Shown here: positions 2,077-14,067 of the stretch, piece by piece
Layout: every line of letters starts with the position of its first letter
Position numbering within the stretch: position 1 is the stretch's first letter
Source of the DNA: a virus
Virus record (IMG/VR): IMGVR_UViG_3300020274_000011
Span: 1-39,456 of that record
Length of the DNA: 39,456 nt
Reading direction: 5' to 3' (one strand)
Notes under the pieces: generated by a model
Database searches by the model: none
Told to the model about the DNA's origin: nothing
Seen by the model: only the letters and a program-made list of their open reading frames with translations
Made by a program: the position numbers and the translations under genes

Positions 2077-2494
2077 GAGGTATCAGGGTAAATACCGACC
2101 AAGTTTCCCTAGAAAGTACAAAGGTGATCCTAATAATGTTATTTATAGGTCATCTTGGGAGTATAAGTTTATGAAGTGGTGTGATGTAACTCCTTCTGTA
2201 CAGGAATGGGGTAGTGAAGAGATTATTATACCTTATGTTTCTCCTGTTGATGGTAGAAAACATAGATATTTCCCTGACTTTTATGTAAAGGTCAAGAATA
2301 AAAAGTATTTGGTTGAAGTCAAACCATTCAAACAAACTCTTGAACCTAAAACTCAAAAACGACATACTAAACGATACATAAATGAGGTCGTCACTTACGC
2401 TGTAAATCAGGCAAAGTGGAAAGCAGCAACCGAGTTCTGTAAAGATAACTCGTGGGAGTTTATGTTAATCACAGAGAAAGAACTTAAAATCTAA
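2075..2494 (+). CDS. 4: Head completion nuclease gp4
   Basis: This 139-residue protein resembles T4 gp4 (also called gp50/65), a small head-completion protein acting on packaged DNA ends before tail joining. It carries a PD-(D/E)XK nuclease pattern: an RSSWEYKFMKW helix with Glu29, Pro67-Asp68 in RYFPDFYV, and Glu81-x-Lys83 in VEVKP. This order (E, PD, ExK) is shared with TnsA-like endonucleases. The gene starts a plus-strand run and its stop overlaps the gp54 start (TAATG). Length is close to T4 gp4. Confidence 0.85.
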   Translation: MRYQGKYRPSFPRKYKGDPNNVIYRSSWEYKFMKWCDVTPSVQEWGSEEIIIPYVSPVDGRKHRYFPDFYVKVKNKKYLVEVKPFKQTLEPKTQKRHTKRYINEVVTYAVNQAKWKAATEFCKDNSWEFMLITEKELKI

Positions 2495-3333
2495 TGGCAA
2501 TTCCAAATTCAGATCAAGCAAGACAGATCGCCAAAACTGGTGGTGGTGTTGGTTCGTTCTTATCTACTATGATCAAGGACGAGACAAAACGTCCTGCGAC
2601 TCTTAATAAGTGGACGATTAGTTTTGCTTCTCCTCCTATCTTACTTGGTCAAAATGTTGGTGGTCAGTCCACTACAGATAAAACTACCTTGGAAAGTAGA
2701 GGTGTTGCTGATTTACTAGATTACTTTGCAAAAAGTGTGAGTTTGCCTAGTAGACAGATTACTACTGGTCAGTTCCAACCTCCAGGTGCGTCAGTAAGAT
2801 ACGCAACCAACCAATCATTTAGTCAGATGCAGATTGAGTTTATCATTCCCTCATCTCAACAGACAAGAGCAATTTTTGAAACATGGGTGAACAGAATAAG
2901 TAGAGACTCTAACCAGATGGTAGACTTCTATCAACAGTATGTGTCTCCAGTAGTGAGAGTTTATAAGTGGGAGTCACAAAGTAATATCAACGTATTGACG
3001 GGTTGTTGGGAGATGTTTAACGTATTCCCGTACAACATTGGTAGTATTCAGTTGAATAATGAACAGAATGGAATCATGACTTTGAGTATGGGATTTTACT
3101 ACGAGAGATATAGATTCCATGCTGCAGAAGCATTTTCAGATCCTGGATTAAGAAAGCAAATTACTGTTCCTGACACATCAGGAGGAACTACAGATGATAG
3201 ATCTGAAAGGAACTTTACTCAGCATATTGGTGGTTTCTTTAATAAATCACAAAAGTTCTTCGTTAAGGCAGGAGGATTTACATATAATGCATTAAGTGGA
3301 GTAAAAGAATATGCAGGTTCGTTCCTTAGCTAA
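2494..3333 (+). CDS. 54: Baseplate tail-tube initiator gp54
   Basis: The 279-residue product matches the cyanophage gp54 family, which binds on top of gp48 and starts tail-tube assembly. After a flexible N-terminus, the body has the tube-protein pattern of paired strands: SVSLPSRQITTGQF, an extended strand containing QMQIEFIIPS, a helix IFETWVNRIS, and the terminal strands GIMTLSMGFYYERYRF. The C-terminal 60 residues are extra and Gly/Phe-rich. T4 gp54 is slightly longer (about 320 residues). The gene lies between gp4 and gp26 and its stop codon is part of the next late promoter. Confidence 0.78.
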   Translation: MAIPNSDQARQIAKTGGGVGSFLSTMIKDETKRPATLNKWTISFASPPILLGQNVGGQSTTDKTTLESRGVADLLDYFAKSVSLPSRQITTGQFQPPGASVRYATNQSFSQMQIEFIIPSSQQTRAIFETWVNRISRDSNQMVDFYQQYVSPVVRVYKWESQSNINVLTGCWEMFNVFPYNIGSIQLNNEQNGIMTLSMGFYYERYRFHAAEAFSDPGLRKQITVPDTSGGTTDDRSERNFTQHIGGFFNKSQKFFVKAGGFTYNALSGVKEYAGSFLS

Positions 3334-3359: not shown

Positions 3360-4070
3360 ATGGCATTACCTAAGTTAAATACCCCTAAGTACAAACTGAA
3401 ACTACCTTCTGATGGTAGAACTGTGAACTATAGACCATTTCTTGTTAAAGAAGAAAAGTTACTATTAGTCGCAACTGAAACTGGTGATCAATCAAACATC
3501 ATCGATGCAATCAAAGACATCATTACAAATTGCACAGACCTAGATTCTGTAGACAATTTAGCAACCTTTGATATTGAATATCTTTTCTTACAGATTAGAA
3601 CTAAGTCTGTCGGTGAAGAAGTTGATGTAGTTGTCACCTGTCCTGATGATGGAGAGACCACTGCAAAGGTCTCGATCCCTCTTGATCAAATCAAGGTCAA
3701 GAAAACAAAGGGGCACAAGTCAAGCATTCAGTTAACTGATGAATGTGCTATCGAAATGGGATATCCAAGTTTGGATATGTTTGTGACACTGAACTTCACT
3801 GATCAAAACATCGGTGTAGAAGAAGTCTTTAAGATGGCAGCAGCATGTGTAAAAACTATTCAAGATCCTAATCAGGTCTATGACTGTAAAGATGTACCTC
3901 AAGATGAGGTCCTTGCATTCTTTGATGATATGAATAGTGCACAGTTTGCAAAAGTGCAAGAGTTTTTTGACACTATGCCAAAACTTGCTCACACAGTTAA
4001 GGTAACTAATCCCAACACTAAAGTAGAAAGTGATGTAACACTCGAAGGACTAGCAAGTTTTTTCGGGTAG
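3360..4070 (+). CDS. 26: Baseplate hub assembly protein gp26
   Basis: The 236-residue protein fits the T4 baseplate gp26 family (Pfam T4_baseplate), needed to assemble the central hub. Visible family features are LPSDGRTVNYRPFLVKEEKLLL near the N-terminus, the FDIEYLFLQIRTKSVGE segment, the CPDDGE turn and the MGYPSLDMF motif. The 0-frame ends with Ser-Phe-Phe-Gly-stop, and those codons contain a T TTT TTC slippery heptamer. A -1 slip there would bypass the TAG and add 60 residues, for a 295-residue product. Recognition as gp26 is good; the two-product idea is inference. Confidence 0.82.
   Translation: MALPKLNTPKYKLKLPSDGRTVNYRPFLVKEEKLLLVATETGDQSNIIDAIKDIITNCTDLDSVDNLATFDIEYLFLQIRTKSVGEEVDVVVTCPDDGETTAKVSIPLDQIKVKKTKGHKSSIQLTDECAIEMGYPSLDMFVTLNFTDQNIGVEEVFKMAAACVKTIQDPNQVYDCKDVPQDEVLAFFDDMNSAQFAKVQEFFDTMPKLAHTVKVTNPNTKVESDVTLEGLASFFG
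4058..4064 (+). promoter_or_regulatory. Candidate -1 ribosomal frameshift site (TTTTTTC)
   Basis: In the gp26 frame the bases read T TTT TTC followed by GGG TAG, a classical X-XXY-YYZ slippery heptamer ending six bases from the stop. A Shine-Dalgarno-like GAAGGA lies at 4044-4049, about eight bases upstream, a placement like the stimulator of bacterial dnaX frameshifting. The -1 frame is open from 4034 to the TAG at 4244-4246. No strong downstream hairpin was found by eye. Confidence 0.6.
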
Positions 4071-4246
4071 CCCTACTTCACACATCTCTACAGGCATATT
4101 ATGAGGGTAACTTTGCTTTGATGCACCACCACAAGTGGAACATCGAACACATAGATAACCTCATGCCATGGGAGAAAGAAATCTATGTTGACATGTTAGT
4201 ACAACACCTCAAAGAGGAAGAACGTAGAATGAAGGAGAAACAATAG
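4064..4246 (+). CDS. -1 frame extension of gp26 (hub assembly, possibly gp51-like)
   Basis: This 60-codon open frame follows directly from a -1 slip at 4058-4064 and ends at TAG 4244-4246. It has no convincing start of its own: the first in-frame ATG is at 4121, inside a conserved-looking segment (YYEGNFALMHHHKW), and has no ribosome site. Features are an N-terminal helix with Ala-Leu-Leu and Gln-Ala-Tyr-Tyr, the aromatic centre ending MPWEKEIYVDML, and a highly charged Glu/Arg/Lys tail. Small proteins of this kind (L-P/W-F/W-E-x-x-Y) serve as the second half of tail assembly chaperones in other phages. Equivalence to T4 gp51 is a guess from position. Confidence 0.6.
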   Translation, partial: RVALLHTSLQAYYEGNFALMHHHKWNIEHIDNLMPWEKEIYVDMLVQHLKEEERRMKEKQ

Positions 4247-4248
4247 CA

Positions 4249-6573
4249 GTGGCAAAAGTTGTAGCATACAAACTGGTTTCACCACCAGCAGGTATAAAAA
4301 ACCCTGCTGCTATTGCTGCACGTTCACAATTATTTGCTATTAATCGTGTTGGTAACACGGTTAGCAGTATGGCAGATGGTTTAAATGATCTTGCTAAGAT
4401 TAATAATGCGTTCAAAAGAACTGAAACTGAGATAGAGAAACAGCAACGTAGAAGGTTGCAAAGAGAACGGGATAATGCTGCAGAGGAAGCACAAGAAGGC
4501 AAGAGAATTGAACAGGGTAAGACGGATAAAGAGTTTGATAAAGAGATCAAGAAGAAACCTAAGAAAGGATTATTAGGTGGTCTCTTAAAATCTAAGAATG
4601 GGTTCTTTGGATTCCTAGGAGGATTCATGGCACCTATTGCAGGTCTTCTAGCGAAGGTTGCAGGTACAGCACTCTTCTTAAATCTACTAGTTTACCTAAA
4701 AGATCCAGAAAACACAGAGAAAGTAAAAGTCTTTATTGAAAAGACTGGATTTGTATTCAATAAATTATTTGAGTTTGCTTCAAAGATCACTGGTGCGATA
4801 ATGACCACCGTTGATAATTTGTTTGGTAAAGAAAAAACTATTGGAGATAGACTTAAAGGATTAGGAACAGTTATTGGTGCCATCACTGGTATAACTGGAA
4901 TCCTAATGGCAATCGATGCTGTAGGTGGCCTACTTAATTTAGGAAGACAGGCAGAAGAAACAGCAGATACTATTGATAGTGTTAATGATGCAAGGAAAGC
5001 ATTACAGAAAGGTAAAAAGGCAAAAAACATTCTTAAGAATGTCACTGATGAATTTGGTGAAGCAGCAGGTAAAAAGGCAAAGAAGATATTAGCAGAAACT
5101 GGTGAGGATGGTTTAAGGATTTTTCAGAATGCTTTAAAAAATACTAAACCCGAACCTGGTAATCTAGTTCAAGCAACTAAAGCATATAATCGTCAGATAA
5201 AAAAATTAACAGCGGTAACTGAGGTTGCGGGTGATCTTGCTAATAAAGCAGATGACGTAAAATCAGCATCAAAAGGCAAAAACATCTTCCAAAGAGGATT
5301 TGACAATCTTGTAGATACAGGAAAAAAACTTGGTACAGCAGGACTGGAAGAAATAAACAAAAGAGGAAAGCAACTTGCGAATCTGATTGAGACGGGTTGG
5401 TCTCTTGCGTCAAAGAAAGCAGGTCCTTCAATTCTAGATGCTCTCAAAAGTCTTCCATCTAAAGCAGTTAAAGCATATGATTCAGTATCAAAGGCAAGTA
5501 AGAATGCTCTTGATTTTGGTCTCAACAAGGTAAAGGGTGCTTATAGTTGGGCAGCAGATGGACTCGCTAGTTTAGGTGCGAAGGCAAAGAAAGAGATCCT
5601 TGATAGGTTGATGGCGAAGTTTAAACCTCTTATCGATAACATAACAAAGATCGTGTCACCTATGGTAGATGGTGCTAAGAATATAATTATGAAAATTCCA
5701 GGAATGGATAAGGCACCAAAAGTATTGAAGTCAATAGGTATTGATGGTGGTATTGGAGCTATTCCTAAAGCAGGTAAGATATTAGGTAAGAGAGCAATGT
5801 CATTCTTACCACTTGTAGGTTCTATTGTAAACTTCTTATTTGCTTATGACAGACTTTCAAAAGGTGATACTATTGGTGCTATGTTAGAAGGTGCATCAGG
5901 TGGATTAGAATTAGCAGGTTATCTTGGTACAGCAGGAACTCTTGGTGCAGGAGCACCTCTAGGTGCAGGTGCTGTTGCAGCAGGATATTTCATTGATGGT
6001 TACATGTTCCTTCGTGATCTCATTCCAGAAATGCAAACTGCTGAAGAGAAGTTTGTTAATAAAATTCCAGGTCTTAATAAGATCAAACCAGTCATTGATA
6101 AGGTATACGCTGATATGCTTCCTAGTTTTGGAACTATTGTTGGTGCTGTCACAGGTAATAAGGGTTTAATTGAGGGCATGAAGAATGAAGGTTATGAAGG
6201 TCAAGGTTCTCGTTTGGAAGAGAAGGCAGAAGGTGGTCTTGTTCCTATGAGAGCAGAAGGTGGTATTGTTCCTATGACAGGAATGCCCAACTTTAGCAAG
6301 ACCATGAATGGAATTGTTAAAACCATAAAACCTCACATTGCTACACCTGAGCATAAGATACAACCAATAATTCAGAAGGTTGAGAATCAAATTCAAGCAG
6401 TGTTTATCAGTGGTGGTTTGTCACAAGACATAGCAATAAAAGAATCAGCAGATGAAATGCTGCCAGTTCCAATCATCATGCAAACCTTAGTTCCTATTCC
6501 TACTGCAGTGCCAATAAATAAAGGCGGTGGTGGAACCTCATCTATCTCTTCTGTAACTTCTAGACGCTTATAA
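4249..6573 (+). CDS. Tape-measure-like tail protein (first paralogue)
   Basis: The 774-residue protein starts at GTG three bases after the preceding stop, with GGAG 12 bases upstream. Residues 25-100 are helical and highly charged, then a hydrophobic stretch (about 110-150, GLLGGLLKSKNGFFGF onward) and repeated Ala/Lys-rich amphipathic helices. Near the C-terminus are two copies of AEGG-(L/I)-VPM, a repeat style common in tape-measure proteins. The N-terminal 230 residues align by eye with the next gene (INxxG-N/A-T-x-x-x-MA, hydrophobic block, LSKDEN/LKDPEN, TIG-F/D), so the two are paralogues. It could correspond to T4 gp29, the tail-length determinator, but I see no direct match. Position between gp26 and gp27 supports a hub/tail-core role. 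Confidence 0.65.
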   Translation: MAKVVAYKLVSPPAGIKNPAAIAARSQLFAINRVGNTVSSMADGLNDLAKINNAFKRTETEIEKQQRRRLQRERDNAAEEAQEGKRIEQGKTDKEFDKEIKKKPKKGLLGGLLKSKNGFFGFLGGFMAPIAGLLAKVAGTALFLNLLVYLKDPENTEKVKVFIEKTGFVFNKLFEFASKITGAIMTTVDNLFGKEKTIGDRLKGLGTVIGAITGITGILMAIDAVGGLLNLGRQAEETADTIDSVNDARKALQKGKKAKNILKNVTDEFGEAAGKKAKKILAETGEDGLRIFQNALKNTKPEPGNLVQATKAYNRQIKKLTAVTEVAGDLANKADDVKSASKGKNIFQRGFDNLVDTGKKLGTAGLEEINKRGKQLANLIETGWSLASKKAGPSILDALKSLPSKAVKAYDSVSKASKNALDFGLNKVKGAYSWAADGLASLGAKAKKEILDRLMAKFKPLIDNITKIVSPMVDGAKNIIMKIPGMDKAPKVLKSIGIDGGIGAIPKAGKILGKRAMSFLPLVGSIVNFLFAYDRLSKGDTIGAMLEGASGGLELAGYLGTAGTLGAGAPLGAGAVAAGYFIDGYMFLRDLIPEMQTAEEKFVNKIPGLNKIKPVIDKVYADMLPSFGTIVGAVTGNKGLIEGMKNEGYEGQGSRLEEKAEGGLVPMRAEGGIVPMTGMPNFSKTMNGIVKTIKPHIATPEHKIQPIIQKVENQIQAVFISGGLSQDIAIKESADEMLPVPIIMQTLVPIPTAVPINKGGGGTSSISSVTSRRL

Positions 6574-9365
6574 TGGCAAAGGCAGCAGTACAAAAATCAT
6601 CGAAGATTAACTTTTACAAGTTTGTAAATGTTAAGGAACCGCCTTCTGATTTAGAGAAGAAAGATCCTGGCGAGTATGCGACAACGGTAAGTTTAAACAA
6701 AAGCACTGAAGCAATTAATAATTTAGGTGCCACTATCAATGGCATGGCAGGTATTGTTGCTGATCTAAAAAAGGTAGAACTAGAAAGACTTGAAGATTTA
6801 AACAAGAATAAACCTAAGATGGATCCCAAGTATGGGAAGACCAAGAAAGGTAGTATCATGGGCAAAGTTGCTAAAGGGATACTGAAAAAAGGTGGTGGAT
6901 TTCTTGAAGGACTCTTAGGATTACTGGGTAATCTATTCAAGGGATTGATTATTTTACCTGCTCTTAGTTGGTTATCAAAGGACGAAAATCAATCTAAAGT
7001 TGTAAAGATTATTGAAGTCATTGGTGCTATCGGTAAGTTTATATTTGACTGGGCAAAGTTTGGAATTACCCAGACTATTGACGGACTGTACATGTTACTG
7101 TCTGATGATACTTCTTGGTGGGAAAAAACTATTGGATTTGGTAAGGCAATCATAGGTATAGGTTCTCTATTCCTAGGTTTGCGTTGGTTAACTAATCCAG
7201 TTAAACTTGCAAAAGATATTACAACTGCAGCAAGAACACTAGTAAGAATTCTGACTAAAGGTGCTGGCCCACGCATGCCTGGAAGCAGAGGTGCTTCTTG
7301 GAAGAAACTAGCAGTAGGAGTAGGAGCAACTATCGTAAGCACGGTTGCTGTTAATCAGTTAACAAAATCAAGTGGGGACTCTGGAGATGGTGCTAACCCA
7401 TCTAATGATGATGACAAGAAAGAAGGGAAAGCAAAGGGTGGTATAGTTAAAGGATATTCTAAGGGTGGTTGGATTCAAGGTCCTCAGTCTGGATACCCTG
7501 TATCACTTGATGGTGGTAAATCTACAGCATTCATTGGTCATGGGACAGAGTATGTTTCTATGAAATCAGCAGGTGGACAAGCATTTGTCACACCGTATGA
7601 TACTCCTGCAACCCGTAAGAATCCTGGTTTGACTGCCATGAGACAGGCAGAGGCAAAGAGACTAGGTTATGCTGAAGGTGGAGAGGTAACGAGACAAGAA
7701 GGATGGGACAAATTCACTGAGTGGGGTAAGGAGAAGGGTGCAAAGTATCCGCAACTCGTCAGTGCTCAGTGGGCACTAGAAAGTGGATGGGGATCAGCTT
7801 TGTCTGCTAAAAACAATTTCTTTGGAATCAAAGCAACTGGTGGCGAATCTTCAGCAAATCAGAGAACTAGAGAAGTTATCAATGGTAAAGACGTTTATAT
7901 CAACGCTAACTTCAAAAACTTCGACACACCTCAGGATGCTGTTGGTCATCTTGTAACTCAGTGGTATAAAGATTACAAAGGATATAAAGGTGTCAACAAT
8001 GCGGGTAGTCCTAATGAAGCAGCAGCAATGCTGAAGTCTGAAGGTTATGCTACAGATCCTACTTACCCTAAGAAGTTGATCGAATTGATGCAATCGAAAG
8101 GTGTTAGCAGTGGTCCTGCATATATTAGTGGAGATAGCACTGGACGTACTGATAGTGGTGCAAGAAATAGAACTGAAGATGCCGAACAGGGAAACACGGG
8201 GTTCTTTGGAGGACTTGCCAATAAGTTCCTTAGTGCAATCAAAGGCATAGGACTCTTTGACGGTGGTGGTGAGTACGATCCGAAGACTGGACGACCTCTA
8301 GATACTCGAATGGAGAGGAGAAAAAAACAGTTCATGAAAATGAAGGAGATGGCAGCAGGTGGTGAACTTGGTAAATTGGGTGATAATACTCCTCTTGCTA
8401 ATGCAGCTAGAGGACAATGTACTACTGGTGTTATATTGACAGCAGAAAAAGTTGGAGCAAACATCGGACATCCAAGTGTCTATACCAGTAAAGATCGTAA
8501 TAACCCTAGGGGTCTGATGTCACAGGCAATCAATCGTTTTAAATGGGGATCCATTGAAGGTCTTGGTAAACCGTTTAAAATTAAATCTCCTTACGGAAAT
8601 GCAAATGTTAATGTGATGAATAAGGATGAATGGGCGAAGAGTGTTAAGGATAAAAAGATTCCCTCTGGTGCCTTGATCTTCACCACTAGGCATTCTAATT
8701 GGAACGCTGCTCGCAGTTCAAGTGGCAATGACTCTGCTATTGCTAAGAATGGTGGAATGAAACTTTGGAGTGGACACTGGCAGAATGGTCGTTATAAGGG
8801 AGTTGCTTCTGTGTATGGAGCAGGAACTACAGGAGTTGTTGCACTAACACACCCTGCCAATAATACACTTGGGTATGATGGTACTATTGATACTTCTTCA
8901 GCAGATGATACCACTAGTGGTTCTGACTCTGAGGGTGGTGGTGCTGCAAACAATACAGTAAAACTGATTAATACTTTGGGTCTTGGCAAACCCTCTAGTG
9001 CAAAGAGTATAGAAGAGAGAATGGGAGCAGGAGTTTCCAGTCAGTTTGGATCTGCTTCAAGCGGATCAGGAGCATTAACACAGGCAACTTCAGATAGAAA
9101 TGAATCAAGAAAACAATTCAAAGAAGGCGTAACTAATGCTGTAACTGCTGCAGCAACAACAGTGAGATCATCTAATGCTGCGACTGCTAATGCTGTCAAT
9201 CAAGCACAAGAAGGTCTAGCAGGTGCGTCAGGTGGTGGAGGAGGAGGTTCGACATCGGTAAATAGTTTACCTGGTGTAGGAACTGTAAATATGAATGGTG
9301 TGTTAAAAAGCACAGCATATGCTCTTAATTCCAACAACAACTTTATGAGAGGTCTTTTACGATGA
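6573..9365 (+). CDS. Tail hub/tape-measure-like protein with GH73 muramidase and possible CHAP-like domain
   Basis: This 930-residue protein shares its first 230 residues with the preceding gene. Residues 285-370 hold KGG(I/W) repeats and the FIGHGTEYV segment. Residues about 376-510 look like a FlgJ-type glucosaminidase (GH73): the likely catalytic Glu403 lies in SAQWALESGWG, followed by NNFFGIKA and a Tyr-Lys-Tyr-Lys-rich stretch. Such domains cut the glycan chain of peptidoglycan. Residues about 604-750 have GQC (Cys616), PSGALIF and SGHW (His735), which may be a papain-like CHAP/NlpC-type domain, less sure. A Gly/Ser linker precedes the end. It overlaps gp27 by ATGA. It may provide the lytic activity absent from the gp5 of this phage. 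Confidence 0.7.
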   Translation: MAKAAVQKSSKINFYKFVNVKEPPSDLEKKDPGEYATTVSLNKSTEAINNLGATINGMAGIVADLKKVELERLEDLNKNKPKMDPKYGKTKKGSIMGKVAKGILKKGGGFLEGLLGLLGNLFKGLIILPALSWLSKDENQSKVVKIIEVIGAIGKFIFDWAKFGITQTIDGLYMLLSDDTSWWEKTIGFGKAIIGIGSLFLGLRWLTNPVKLAKDITTAARTLVRILTKGAGPRMPGSRGASWKKLAVGVGATIVSTVAVNQLTKSSGDSGDGANPSNDDDKKEGKAKGGIVKGYSKGGWIQGPQSGYPVSLDGGKSTAFIGHGTEYVSMKSAGGQAFVTPYDTPATRKNPGLTAMRQAEAKRLGYAEGGEVTRQEGWDKFTEWGKEKGAKYPQLVSAQWALESGWGSALSAKNNFFGIKATGGESSANQRTREVINGKDVYINANFKNFDTPQDAVGHLVTQWYKDYKGYKGVNNAGSPNEAAAMLKSEGYATDPTYPKKLIELMQSKGVSSGPAYISGDSTGRTDSGARNRTEDAEQGNTGFFGGLANKFLSAIKGIGLFDGGGEYDPKTGRPLDTRMERRKKQFMKMKEMAAGGELGKLGDNTPLANAARGQCTTGVILTAEKVGANIGHPSVYTSKDRNNPRGLMSQAINRFKWGSIEGLGKPFKIKSPYGNANVNVMNKDEWAKSVKDKKIPSGALIFTTRHSNWNAARSSSGNDSAIAKNGGMKLWSGHWQNGRYKGVASVYGAGTTGVVALTHPANNTLGYDGTIDTSSADDTTSGSDSEGGGAANNTVKLINTLGLGKPSSAKSIEERMGAGVSSQFGSASSGSGALTQATSDRNESRKQFKEGVTNAVTAAATTVRSSNAATANAVNQAQEGLAGASGGGGGGSTSVNSLPGVGTVNMNGVLKSTAYALNSNNNFMRGLLR

Positions 9366-10762
9366 GTATTAAAAGAGTAAATGCGGGTGATTGTACTGTC
9401 ACAATTTCTCTTAAGAGAGATGGAGAAAAACTTACAACTAAAGATGGTGGATATAATTTAATCACCTTTCTCAAAACTTGGGAGATCTACGAGAGCATTG
9501 AGTCTGCAACAATCGAGGCAATGTTTATCTTTGAAGATAGTGCAGGTCTTTCAAATGTTTTTACTGGATCTGAACTGATTAGGTTTGAAGTTAAAGGAAG
9601 TGTTGTTACGAGAAAGTATTCTTTTAGATCATACAACATTAGTAGTAGAAGTAGAGTTACTCAAACTACTGATGCATTTATTATTCATGCATGTTCTGAT
9701 GAATATATTAAGAATGAAGCAGCAAATGTTTTTGGAAACTCAGAAGTAATCTTTAAAAAGACTGGTATTGAAGCAACTGATATTGTCAAAACATTAGTGG
9801 GAAACACTATGTTTCTTGGAAGTCCCAAAAAAGTATTTGCAGAGGATAGTTTAACCAAACATAAGTTTATAGCACCAAACTGGAGACCTTTAGATACAAT
9901 CTATTGGATTACCCAGAGAACAGTCAGAAAAAAGAAAACGGGTGGTAGTTATCAAAACGGGTACACATTCTTTGAAAATGCATTAGGTTATCACTTCAAA
10001 TCTATTGATGGTATGATTGATGATATCAATGATCAGGATGGTGATACCAAAACTGATGAAAAAACAGGTAAAACAAGATTGTATAGTTATTCTCTTTCTT
10101 TAAAGAGGGTAGGTAATGGAGCAACAGACCAGTATAAAATTGATACTGTATCATTCCCAGAGGAGAAAAACTTTTTGATGGGATTGAGGCATGGTGCGTG
10201 GTCAGGATACAGTGTGGGGTTTGATCCTGTAACAATCAATCAATCTAGATGGGGTGGTAAGAGTCCAGACTTAGCAGGAGCAAGTTTCAACTATAATATT
10301 AATGATATCTGGAAATCAATGTCACACTTGGGTGGAAAGAAGGCAGTCAACCCTGTGTCACGACTTGATAATGAAACCAAAAATCTTATTGACAACCCTA
10401 AGAGGGTACGTTATAGTATACTTCCAAACCAAATCTTCGATAAGAAGTGGTATAACTACATACCTGGTTTGAACAGAAGTTCCTCCAAAAATTATGAAGC
10501 ACTCGTAGAGTTGCAAGCATATCAATGGATGAGAATGGAATCACTAAAAAACACAAAACTACAAATCTCAATTCCTGGAAATCTGGACCTCTATGCAGGT
10601 TCTGGTATCGATGTTACCTTACCATCTACAGTAAAATCTGGTGATAAGATTAAGAGAGATAAGAGGTATAGTGGTCGTTACATGATTGTTACGATTGCTC
10701 ATAAAGGATCATCTGATACATTTTCTTCGGAAATGCTCCTCATGAAGGACGCTGTTAGTTGA
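9362..10762 (+). CDS. 27: Baseplate hub protein gp27
   Basis: The 466-residue product resembles the T4 gp27 hub family, a trimer that links the gp5 spike to the tail tube. Supporting segments are the N-terminal strand pair around LITFLKTWEIYESIESATIEAMF, a loading-type domain with FIIHACSDEYIKNEA, and FIAPNWRPLDTIYWITQRT, which matches the F-x-P-x-x-P-x-x-x-I-x-W-L/I pattern of phage hub proteins. The C-terminal DVTLPSTVKSGDKIKRDKRY followed by GRYMIVTIAHK is the usual ending of the fold. The gene overlaps the lytic tape-measure-like protein by ATGA and is followed by a late promoter and two metabolic genes before gp5. Confidence 0.78.
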   Translation: MSIKRVNAGDCTVTISLKRDGEKLTTKDGGYNLITFLKTWEIYESIESATIEAMFIFEDSAGLSNVFTGSELIRFEVKGSVVTRKYSFRSYNISSRSRVTQTTDAFIIHACSDEYIKNEAANVFGNSEVIFKKTGIEATDIVKTLVGNTMFLGSPKKVFAEDSLTKHKFIAPNWRPLDTIYWITQRTVRKKKTGGSYQNGYTFFENALGYHFKSIDGMIDDINDQDGDTKTDEKTGKTRLYSYSLSLKRVGNGATDQYKIDTVSFPEEKNFLMGLRHGAWSGYSVGFDPVTINQSRWGGKSPDLAGASFNYNINDIWKSMSHLGGKKAVNPVSRLDNETKNLIDNPKRVRYSILPNQIFDKKWYNYIPGLNRSSSKNYEALVELQAYQWMRMESLKNTKLQISIPGNLDLYAGSGIDVTLPSTVKSGDKIKRDKRYSGRYMIVTIAHKGSSDTFSSEMLLMKDAVS

Positions 10763-10768
10763 TAAATA
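10761..10768 (+). promoter_or_regulatory. Late promoter -10 element (GATAAATA) for CP12-CpeT
   Basis: GATAAATA partly overlaps the gp27 stop (TGA at 10760-10762) and lies 24 bases before the CP12 ATG. The metabolic pair thus has its own late-type start. Confidence 0.5.
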
Positions 10769-10792
10769 GTTTTGTACTACTAAGGTACTAAC

Positions 10793-11020
10793 ATGAAAAC
10801 ACTAGAAGAACACATCCAAAAAGATCAAGACATCCTAGACAATCCGATGACATCTCCTGCATCTCGCAGACACATTACTGAAGAGTTGCATGAGTTAGAA
10901 GTTTATGCTCATAATCATCGCCACGAGATTGCAGAGGGTGATCACCATGATCCAACTGCGCTTGAACTATTTTGTGAAGTGCATCCTGACGAACCAGAAT
11001 GCCTAATCTATGACGATTGA
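10793..11020 (+). CDS. cp12: CP12-like Calvin cycle regulator
   Basis: The 75-residue protein ends in ELFCEVHPDEPECLIYDD, which fits the C-terminal signature of CP12 (C-x8-C followed by x-x-Y-D-D; here Cys61 and Cys70). In cyanobacteria this end inserts into glyceraldehyde-3-phosphate dehydrogenase and, with phosphoribulokinase, shuts down the Calvin cycle when oxidised. Cyanophages are known to carry CP12 and are thought to divert carbon to the pentose phosphate pathway. The N-terminal half is helical and charged (EEHIQKDQDIL, ITEELHELEVYAHNH). The usual N-terminal Cys pair and the AWD-VEEL core of host CP12 are absent, and the normal Arg after the second Cys is Leu. It overlaps CpeT by 11 bases. 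Confidence 0.8.
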   Translation: MKTLEEHIQKDQDILDNPMTSPASRRHITEELHELEVYAHNHRHEIAEGDHHDPTALELFCEVHPDEPECLIYDD

Positions 11021-11459
11021 GTCTTACCTTTTAGGACTCTGGAATAACATAGCACAAGCACAAGCGAATCCCCATGCCTATGCATCAATTTACATGCATT
11101 GGCAAGAGATAGAAGGGGGTTTTCAGTCTCAAAATTACTATAGAGTTGACGGTCCAAGTAAACCATATAGAAAAAGATATCACAAGAAGGTAATAATATC
11201 AGACACTGAAGTATTAATAGAGAATTACGATTTAGAGTGGACAAAATCTGAAGAGTGTGGTATGCTGTTTACATTTGATGGTAACGCATGGCACGGTTCT
11301 GTAGTGGGAAATTGTATTGCTAATGGAGTTGAAATCAAATCACAGATGTCACTCTTCGGTGACAAGTTACATAGTTGTGACCAAGGGTATGTTGATGGTA
11401 AGATGATCTGGGGTAGTAAAGAAACCTATAAGTTTGTCAAAACCAAAATCGCCTTTTAG
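11010..11459 (+). CDS. cpeT: CpeT/CpcT-like phycobiliprotein lyase
   Basis: The 149-residue protein shows the order of motifs of the CpcT/CpeT chromophore lyase family: the N-terminal LGLWNNIAQAQANPHAY, QNYYRVDG (41-48) followed by PYRKR (52-56), ENYDL (71-75), a Cys83 after the central loop, GNCI (100-103), the strand VEIKSQMSLF, DQGYV (124-128) and WGS (134-136) with FVK after it. The family folds as a lipocalin-like barrel and helps attach bilins to phycobiliprotein cysteines. Cyanophage versions are known and shorter than host ones. It shares 11 bases with CP12, so both are likely expressed together late in infection to adjust host metabolism and pigments. Confidence 0.85.
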   Translation: MTIESYLLGLWNNIAQAQANPHAYASIYMHWQEIEGGFQSQNYYRVDGPSKPYRKRYHKKVIISDTEVLIENYDLEWTKSEECGMLFTFDGNAWHGSVVGNCIANGVEIKSQMSLFGDKLHSCDQGYVDGKMIWGSKETYKFVKTKIAF

Positions 11460-11497
11460 TTTCAAAAATCGGGGCAAAAAAATCCCGCCAAAATTTT

Positions 11498-11513
11498 AAC
11501 CTCCAAGGTTTTT
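11498..11513 (+). terminator. Weak terminator-like hairpin after CpeT
   Basis: AACCT-CCA-AGGTT is a 5-bp stem with a 3-base loop that runs straight into a short T run (11509-11513). It lies between the CpeT stop and the gp5 promoter. An alternative CGGG/CCCG pairing lies at 11470-11487. Short stem, so only a possibility. Confidence 0.35.
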
Positions 11514-11514
11514 C

Positions 11515-11522
11515 CATAAATA
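11515..11522 (+). promoter_or_regulatory. Late promoter -10 element (CATAAATA) for gp5
   Basis: CATAAATA ends 19 bases before the gp5 ATG at 11542, directly downstream of the weak hairpin. Confidence 0.6.
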
Positions 11523-11541
11523 ATCAAAAATCTCAAGATAG

Positions 11542-14067
11542 ATGAACACAGTTGAAGGGATTCTCAATGAACCTACAGTAAATTTCGTTGGTAAAGACGG
11601 ATTTTATTGGTGGGTTGGAGAAGTTGAAGACAATGAAGACCCGATGGAACTCGGTCGGTGTAAGGTTCGTGTGCTCGGATATTACACTAATGTGAGAGGT
11701 GGTACGGTTGCTGACTTACCTACAGACGAATTACCATGGGCAACAGTATTACAACATACTTCTCAGGCAGGTAATGATGGTCAGGGTGAGAGTGCAGGAC
11801 AACTTCAACCTGGTGCGATTGTTATGGGATTCTTCATGGATGGAGAATCTGCTCAAATGCCGATTGTTATTGGTGTTTTGCGTATTCAAAAAAGTCTTGC
11901 GAGTGGTAAAAAGCATCAATTCACCTTAACAGGTGAAGCAATGGAAGGTCCTCAGGTGAACCCTGCACTTAGAAGGACTGCAGATCCTAATAGTAATAAA
12001 GTCAATAATAAGGAGAATGCTTCTGGATCAAATGCTGTAAAAAATCCTGGAAGTAAAGTATCACCAGAACCTGCAGGTCCAGGATCACCTAATAATATAG
12101 GTGTACACCTCCCAGGATCCTCTGGTAATCCAACAAAACCAAGATCACCTAGTAAACCAATCCCTACTGCAAATGGTGTAGGTGGACCATGGAAATCTGT
12201 AGAAGCAAAATTAAACTACCTGTTGGAGGATATTGCTGATACAGCAGGTACACTGATTGCAACAGAAGATGGAGATTTTCTTGACATTGTATCAGGTAAA
12301 GTTGTAACTATTGAGAAACTTACAGCAAAACTACAAAATTTCTTGGGTGCAATCTTCACTCAAATCATCTCTGCGATTAGAGAATCAACATCAGCACTTG
12401 CTGAAAAGTTGGGTGGTCTACTAGACTTTTCCAAACTTGCACCAGGAGTTCCATTTTTACAAATGGGGTTGATTCAAACTGCGGTACAACAGATTTTATC
12501 ACAACTCTGTATCTTTGATAGTCAAATTACTAGTTTTATTTCAGATCCTGTTGGATCTATCACTGGTTTAATTTCGGGAATGTTAGAGGGTGCTATCAGT
12601 AAAGCAGAAATGGTAATGCAAGGTGTGCAAGAAACCATTGATAGTATCGTATGTAATGTACAAAAAGTTCTTAATGATCTTAAAAAGGTAATTTCTGCTG
12701 TAAAAACAACAGTTAGTGCAGTCAGCGGTGCACAAGACATCATCAACAACTGGGAAAAAGGTTCTGGTATCTTTGATGCAGGAAATGACTTCTTTCAAAA
12801 CGGACTTACTGGTCTTTCGGGTCTCCTTTCTCTATTCGTTAAGTTTCTTGGTGGTGGATGCGATAGAAAACCTGATGGAGGTGCTGATAGTCATGGTTAC
12901 TTCCCATTATTCGGTGTTACCAACTGTAGTGACGAAGAATTAGAAAATATCAATAAAATTCGAGGTAGTAATAGAGGAAGTTGTGAAGGTGATAGTGCTG
13001 CAGGTGGTATTCTTGATCAAATCTTTACAAAAGCAGATCCATATCTACAAGTAGCAAAAACATTTGTTGATGGTTCATTTGATCACCATGTAGGAACCCC
13101 AGGTCGTCAGGCACATGTCATGAAGGAACCTAGTGGAACTACTCACTCTTCTTATAACATCAATAACAACACTTTTGCAGAGTGGACATTTCTGAAAAAA
13201 CTTAGAGAAAGTAATGCAGACATTTCAGAGGCAGAGGTAGAAAAGAAACTTGAAGCATATAAAAAGACTAACCGAGGTAATACTAAAGATGATACTGGTA
13301 ACTTAGTTGCCGATCACTCTAGTTACGCAGGAAATCACACCGTAGATGTTATGGGTGACGATTGTACAACTGTAGATGGTGATACTGTTCTAAACGTAGA
13401 AGGTGATTATCGTCTGAAGATTACTGGTGACTGCCATCTTGAAGTTGGTGGAGGTTTCTTCCTCAACGCATCTGGCGCACCTAAAACAGTAGATAAAAAC
13501 GGTAAGAAAAAGAGCAGCAAGATTCAGAAACACACAATTTCATTTAACTCAGATGTAGATGTTAAAACTGCGGGTGCTGCTTTAACATTGCAAGGAGCAG
13601 AATTTAGTAATGGTGCTAATAATACTAAGTTTACTGGATCTATCTATGAAAACTCATGTAAACTTCAAAAGATGAGTGGTAATGAACTTGTATTGTCTGG
13701 TAATAGTGTTATCAACCTTGCGACTCCTGTGTTAAACCAGATGATCAATACTGATCCAACATCAACGATTGCTGCACCAGGAGTTTTTACTACTTGTTTT
13801 GGAGACATTACAACTAAACAATTTCCCTCTAAGACTAGACCAGTTCCGACTAATACCCTATTGAATGAACTTGGTCCTGTAACGGTGACTTCTGGAGCAC
13901 CAGGTTATAATAATGTAGTGACTACAGGTATATTCAATGTTAATGTTAAAGCAGGTGCTATGACAATGGCATGCACCACTGCAGCATCTATCACATCAGG
14001 TGCTGCCATGACCCTGAAGGCAGGTGCAGTTATGAAACTGACTGGTAGCAATATCTACCTAAATTGA
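11542..14067 (+). CDS. 5: Baseplate hub/spike protein gp5 (no lysozyme domain seen)
   Basis: The 841-residue protein has an N-terminal OB-fold-like region (residues 15-115: GFYWWVGEVEDNEDP, GRCKVRVLGYYT, LPWATVL, GAIVMGFFMDG, PIVIGVLR), as in gp5/VgrG spike proteins. A Pro/Gly/Ser linker follows (about 135-215), then a long helical and hydrophobic middle (about 220-440). From about residue 590 there are short repeated strands typical of the spike beta-helix (HTVDVMGDDCTTVDGDTVLN, then MTMACTTAASITSGAAMTLKAGA near the end). T4 gp5 carries a GH24 lysozyme between OB-fold and helix; I see no such domain here. The cell-wall activity may instead be in the protein encoded at 6573-9365. Confidence 0.8.
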   Translation: MNTVEGILNEPTVNFVGKDGFYWWVGEVEDNEDPMELGRCKVRVLGYYTNVRGGTVADLPTDELPWATVLQHTSQAGNDGQGESAGQLQPGAIVMGFFMDGESAQMPIVIGVLRIQKSLASGKKHQFTLTGEAMEGPQVNPALRRTADPNSNKVNNKENASGSNAVKNPGSKVSPEPAGPGSPNNIGVHLPGSSGNPTKPRSPSKPIPTANGVGGPWKSVEAKLNYLLEDIADTAGTLIATEDGDFLDIVSGKVVTIEKLTAKLQNFLGAIFTQIISAIRESTSALAEKLGGLLDFSKLAPGVPFLQMGLIQTAVQQILSQLCIFDSQITSFISDPVGSITGLISGMLEGAISKAEMVMQGVQETIDSIVCNVQKVLNDLKKVISAVKTTVSAVSGAQDIINNWEKGSGIFDAGNDFFQNGLTGLSGLLSLFVKFLGGGCDRKPDGGADSHGYFPLFGVTNCSDEELENINKIRGSNRGSCEGDSAAGGILDQIFTKADPYLQVAKTFVDGSFDHHVGTPGRQAHVMKEPSGTTHSSYNINNNTFAEWTFLKKLRESNADISEAEVEKKLEAYKKTNRGNTKDDTGNLVADHSSYAGNHTVDVMGDDCTTVDGDTVLNVEGDYRLKITGDCHLEVGGGFFLNASGAPKTVDKNGKKKSSKIQKHTISFNSDVDVKTAGAALTLQGAEFSNGANNTKFTGSIYENSCKLQKMSGNELVLSGNSVINLATPVLNQMINTDPTSTIAAPGVFTTCFGDITTKQFPSKTRPVPTNTLLNELGPVTVTSGAPGYNNVVTTGIFNVNVKAGAMTMACTTAASITSGAAMTLKAGAVMKLTGSNIYLN

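Follow-up and report, generated by a model that had tools for sequence, protein, structure and literature searches.

Short and long forms of one protein, made by −1 frameshifting, are a hallmark of tail-assembly chaperones, as in the G/GT pair of phage lambda and the E/E+E′ pair of P2. The work on these tail chaperones is reportedly that of Xu, Hendrix and Duda in 2004 and of Christie et al. in 2002. In the dnaX gene of E. coli, a Shine-Dalgarno-like stimulator lies about 10 nt ahead of the slippery heptamer. For T4-like phages, the PRFect paper (PMC10885494) credits Vladimirov, Gautam & Davidson 2022 with the identification of tail-assembly chaperones (TACs), and the Adele paper (PMC12846349) cites the same study (Virology 566:9) for poly-T slippery sequences in T4-like TAC-N genes. 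According to these papers, some T4-like phages carry a short copy and a fused long copy instead (PMC10885494, PMC12846349).

As far as these citing texts go, the described TACs match gp26/gp51 in their short and long forms, in the poly-T site within the short gene and in the existence of a fused copy; the present instance differs in belonging to an uncultured cyanophage. The citing papers name neither gene, and the identification of the described TACs with gp26/gp51 is our own, based on the match of the description and on the annotation of phage AM101. Tail-chaperone frameshifting in T4-like phages therefore appears, from the citing texts, to be already described, and gp26/gp51 here is a further well-supported instance. 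The initial annotation had held that such a shift was not known to be described for T4-type gp26. This claim has to be withdrawn in view of the cited reports of poly-T slippery signals (PMC10885494, PMC12846349), and because of these reports our finding is an added case of a described device and not a discovery. In the accessible literature, a numerical census, a selection on Shine-Dalgarno codons and an account of the ‘truncated gp51’ of 2010 were not found.

The DNA analyzed here (the window) comprises the 39,456 bases of an IMG/VR virus record and derives from an uncultured marine T4-like cyanophage. The nearest relatives are Prochlorococcus/Synechococcus myoviruses, with P-RSM1 and metaG-MbCM1 sharing 84–85% DNA identity across the gp26/gp51 region. 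The gp26 gene (3360..4070, + strand) encodes in the 0 frame the short product of 236 aa and 26.3 kDa, which matches PF12322 T4_baseplate (E 1.1e-74) and phrog_150 baseplate hub (E 2.6e-85). With a probability of roughly 94%, we read gp26/gp51 from the sequence as one gene with two products, obtained via a −1 frameshift, which would likely be a tail-assembly chaperone pair.

The 3′ end of gp26 reads AGT TTT TTC GGG TAG. The slippery heptamer T TTT TTC (4058..4064, + strand) stands in the correct X XXY YYZ phase, and the 0-frame stop TAG (4068..4070, + strand) is located one codon past it. A Shine-Dalgarno-like GAAGGA (4044..4049, + strand), the presumed frameshift stimulator, lies 8 nt ahead of the heptamer in the layout GAAGGA CTAGCAAG TTTTTTC GGG TAG. 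The −1 frame is free of stops from 4034 to 4243 and closes at 4244–4246; its gp51 segment (4064..4246, + strand) comprises 60 codons after the slip and the stop. The initial annotation had proposed −1 programmed frameshifting at this site, pointing to the GAAGGA element and to the missing start of the −1 frame, and had expected a fusion product near 33 kDa. All of these points stand: gp26 plus the −1 segment gives a predicted fusion of 295 aa with a computed mass of 33.7 kDa. The predicted junction is LASFF-RVALLH, such that one tryptic peptide ends in LASFFR and the next one begins VALLHTSLQAYYEGNFALMHHHK in window numbering; LLHTSLQAYYEGNFAL is a segment of the −1 frame product. The small ORF is no unknown segment: its match to phrog_634 (E 1.5e-29), labelled ‘baseplate hub assembly catalyst’, places it in the gp51 family.

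Conservation of the heptamer was assessed in a census of IMG/VR loci, for which gp51, S-PM2 gp26, a gp26 alignment and T4 gp51 served as queries and to which isolate records were added; Rhizobium gp26 as a search seed returned a single locus. In all 254 loci having both parts as separate open frames, gp51 lies in the −1 frame of gp26. Clustering dereplicated these loci to 152, which include cyanophage, Stenotrophomonas, Vibrio, Aeromonas, Cronobacter and rhizobial phages. All 152 carry the in-phase T6 heptamer (149 TTTTTTC; 2 TTTTTTG, the Rhizobium type; 1 TTTTTTT, from Sinorhizobium), and the 0-frame stop is found exactly one codon past it in 151. The proposal that heptamer and −1 ORF are conserved at the same place in relatives is thereby borne out.

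Of 180 other Phe-Phe pairs inside the same genes, which favor TTC TTT, just 2 read T_TTT_TTY. Synonymous change at both slip codons was absent from 2468 pair comparisons (145 clusters), against a mean of 0.455 over the body of the gene (codons −60 to −16) and 0.44–0.71 in the six codons directly upstream; the codons on either side of the slip pair vary freely. The conservation of the heptamer is far beyond chance. Direct reading finds T TTT TTC in phase in the cyanophages P-RSM1, ACG-2014b, Syn33, S-PM2, S-SSM7 and P-HM2. The same holds for Stenotrophomonas DLP6, Vibrio PVA8, Aeromonas Ah1, BUCT-ZZ01, Cronobacter LPCS28, S-PRM1, MC09, Vibrio Bakedbeans and one freshwater clade, and Melnitz-2 has T TTT TTT.

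Homopolymer runs are error-prone, and a sequencing or assembly error in the T-run could in principle split one continuous gene. This explanation was considered and rejected as having practically no probability, ruled out by the 152-cluster census: the same T6 and −1 relation recurs across these clusters and in the genomes of isolates from numerous laboratories, and the 0-frame gp26 lengths are uniform.

One distant phage departs from the pattern. Pseudomonas phage Cygsa01 (gp26/gp51 region at 1072–1982 of its record) reads C ATT TTC and keeps both ORFs, with an ATG overlapping the gp26 stop. Loss of the heptamer with both ORFs retained had been named as evidence against the shift; it occurs in this one phage. 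Since Cygsa01 combines the missing heptamer with the overlapping ATG, gp51 may start separately in its lineage, which possibly abandoned frameshifting without duplication.

The −1 frame itself bears the signature of a translated sequence. In none of the 152 loci does the −1 ORF contain a start codon ahead of the slip, and in 60 of them none occurs within 15 codons past it. In the window, the earliest ATG/GTG/TTG of this frame are TTG 4118 and then ATG 4121, at codons 18 and 19 after the slip, which leaves the conserved first third of the frame without a start. The window-like clade comprises 46 clusters, of which 42 contain no start codon among the 17 codons that follow the slip. For these 42 loci, dN/dS at codons 3–17 is 0.07 in the −1 frame and exceeds 2 in each of the two alternative frames. 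In the clade as a whole, codons 3–50 contain no stops in the −1 frame versus 187 and 213 in the others. The segment is selected as a protein yet is unable to start alone, and must therefore be reached by upstream ribosomes.

These data bear on a rival reading, in which the heptamer is incidental and gp51 is a small gene of its own that initiates at ATG 4121 or TTG 4118, or through reinitiation once gp26 has terminated. In several records, e.g. Syn33 and P-HM2, gp51 is indeed annotated as a short gene with an internal ATG as its start, and a GAGGG is found about 9–10 nt ahead of TTG 4118. However, the 18 conserved codons preceding ATG 4121 are selected as protein despite having no start, and Ile stands in place of the annotators' ATG (codon 19) in 8 of the 46 window-like clusters. 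An independent start in relatives had also been named as evidence against the shift, and this part of the objection has some substance: in about half of the clusters an ATG/GTG/TTG occurs at most 4 codons past the slip, and an ATG 2–4 codons past it in about half of the loci makes a free gp51 possible there. The heptamer is kept all the same, in every locus with or without a following ATG. The Met near the slip (residue 3) alternates with Leu among relatives, and the location of the Shine-Dalgarno-like element suits the slip, its distance to the relatives' early ATG being about 21 nt. We consider an independent gp51 very improbable and −1 frameshifting, giving gp26 and a gp26–gp51 fusion, almost certain on the sequence evidence.

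Shine-Dalgarno-like elements are enriched in the region preceding the slip. Anti-Shine-Dalgarno pairing of −5 kcal/mol or stronger within 40 nt upstream characterizes 91% of the sites versus 19% of control windows, and the 3′ end of the best-pairing 8-mer is most often 6–7 nt from the heptamer. The element is GAAGGA/GAGGG and sits close to the slip. In relatives, the Glu codon at position −7 is GAG in 90 of 136 cases (GAG:other 90:46) compared with 29% elsewhere (991:2435); the corresponding p of 1.9e-18 is too small since the clusters are related, the direction being clear. From this skew to GAG, the nucleotide, and not the amino acid alone, appears to be selected. No downstream stem-loop or pseudoknot was conserved clearly above column shuffles (RNAalifold). 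Folded as single sequences, the regions 3′ of the site are somewhat more stable than the gene body (−11.3 vs −8.6 kcal/mol), without conserved pairs. The gp26 site thus resembles dnaX in its upstream Shine-Dalgarno-like element but differs in that dnaX uses A AAA AAG and a downstream hairpin, whereas gp26 has T TTT TTC and no conserved hairpin.

As gp26 ends on a conserved slippery site, a minority of ribosomes should slip into the −1 frame. The majority would terminate at TAG 4068 and yield gp26. The upstream Shine-Dalgarno-like contact would aid the slip at T TTT TTC (4058–4064), and the fraction of ribosomes that slipped would translate to 4246 and yield the gp26–gp51 fusion. The short and long forms would then serve as a tail-assembly (tape-measure) chaperone. 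In T4 and its close relatives, the same two proteins come from the separate genes 26 and 51.

T4 gp26 (208 aa) and gp51 (249 aa) are encoded on opposite strands, and both match PF12322. In profile comparisons, gp26 aligns to residues 7–201 of T4-type gp51 (E 2.5e-12) and the −1 ORF to residues 208–250 (E 1.3e-8; five column shuffles gave E of at least 0.12). Since gp26 and the −1 ORF both match along T4-type gp51, T4 gp51 is a natural in-frame counterpart of the predicted fusion, with its two parts joined close to the position of the slip. T4 gp26 corresponds to the short form and T4 gp51 to gp26 plus the C-terminal gp51 segment; the difference is that T4 has two separate divergent genes without a slippery site. 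The Phe pair of gp26 is TTC TTT in T4 and Serratia phage 4S, which does not permit this kind of slip, and the pair is absent from gp26 of AM101 and phiAS4. Where the fused protein has a gene of its own, the heptamer is missing, as expected if duplication replaced the shift, or the reverse. We tentatively suggest, as a minority possibility, that the Shine-Dalgarno-stimulated −1 shift is ancestral and that T4 genes 26 and 51 arose by duplication and in-frame fusion with loss of the heptamer.

Two side observations concern these genes. Within T4 gene 26, an internal in-frame start is annotated as well (gp26′; 3803–4090 of its record in our set), which is a second route to two products in the gp26 family. 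A T4-type gp51 in one IMG/VR record (L264, 1501–2246) has 16 stops over the match and is not in one frame, through a sequencing error or because the gene is broken.

We infer the chaperone role from homology and from analogy with lambda G/GT and P2 E/E+E′, and it is the most likely function of the short and long forms. The initial annotation had likened the locus to G/GT, and the short/long pattern agrees with this: short and long −1 shift forms are predicted here as well, and the common N-terminus of the two forms, a TAC-like trait, follows by sequence from the slip site and from T4 gp51 as a natural fusion. Differences include another heptamer, a T4-type contractile tail and a stop one codon after the heptamer, and no sequence similarity to the lambda and P2 chaperones is shown here. 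In the structural comparisons, T4-type gp51 was modeled as a stand-in for the predicted fusion. The gp26 model (pLDDT 85) had a weak, non-significant Foldseek match to HK97 gp13, a protein with the TAC fold (2ob9_B; prob 0.38, E 2.7, 63 columns, rmsd 3.6); neither the gp26 nor the gp51 model had a significant match among PDB structures, and a sequence search for solved relatives gave none. The viral structure library yielded relatives of gp26/gp51 and a single ‘Tape measure chaperone’, from Citrobacter phage Moon (E 2.2e-3).

The short/long −1 pairing, a mark of tail-assembly chaperones, argues against a reading in which the frameshift is real and the pair works in baseplate hub assembly, the function by which T4 genetics names gp26 and gp51 hub assembly chaperones. 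The Acinetobacter AM101 record names both proteins ‘tape measure protein assembly chaperone’. In favor of the hub reading, tail assembly in T4 requires gp51 although the virion does not contain it (PMC3004832); T4-like TACs are reported in the citing texts as tail-assembly chaperones (PMC10885494, PMC12846349). Hub assembly in place of the tape-measure role is in our opinion unlikely, and the ‘chaperone fusion in hub assembly’ of the initial annotation is better read as a tail/tape-measure chaperone pair. The two functions overlap, since T4 gp29 serves as tape measure and as hub protein.

A TAC gene is expected between the tail-tube and tape-measure genes of a long-tailed phage. The gene order places gp26/gp51 between a tail-tube-like gene (2494..3333, + strand; phrog_45, E 2.7e-47) and a long ORF. 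This 774-aa ORF directly 3′ of gp51 (4249..6573, + strand; phrog_790, labelled endolysin) is a candidate tape-measure partner from its position and size. It is the first of two long ORFs 3′ of gp51, 4249–6573 and 6573–9365, both labelled endolysin by PHROGs, the second (930 aa) being of the phrog_1200 family end to end. For both, a structural or tape-measure role with a lysin domain is more likely than a lysis endolysin. In other cyanophages, the two ORFs after gp51 measure 1565 and 1456 aa in S-CREM2 (418-nm tail; 4484–13555 of its record in our set), 933 and 722 aa in S-N03 (138 nm) and 936 and 735 aa in S-H34 (129 nm), while S-CRM01 (140–170 nm) has a single 864-aa ORF. Among the cluster C phages, both ORFs are larger in S-CREM2 and neither scales cleanly with tail length. 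The ORFs after gp51 may include the cyanophage tape measure, now labelled endolysin or chitinase.

Lastly, the locus bears on genome annotation. Sullivan et al. (2010) described cyanophage gp51 as about 20% of the usual length, with the first ~200 residues absent, and gp51 as missing in Aeh1 (PMC3037559). The ~200 residues ‘lost’ from cyanophage gp51 are gp26 itself. In current records, gp51 is unannotated in P-RSM1, ACG-2014b, Ah1, LPCS28 and S-PRM1, and annotated too short in Syn33, P-HM2, BUCT-ZZ01, Bakedbeans and Melnitz-2. It is present in the −1 frame in Aeromonas Ah1, of the genus of Aeh1, and in Cronobacter LPCS28. The annotation of a core gene is thereby corrected in hundreds of cyanophage genomes, gp51 being read as the frameshifted tail of gp26 and not as a truncated gene that stands alone. 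If the ancestral-shift reading is true and new, it would account for the cyanophage gp51 described as ‘truncated’ and for the gp51 ‘missing’ from Aeh1. The relation between gp26 and gp51 would also provide a simple reason for the two essential, paralogous hub-assembly genes of T4.
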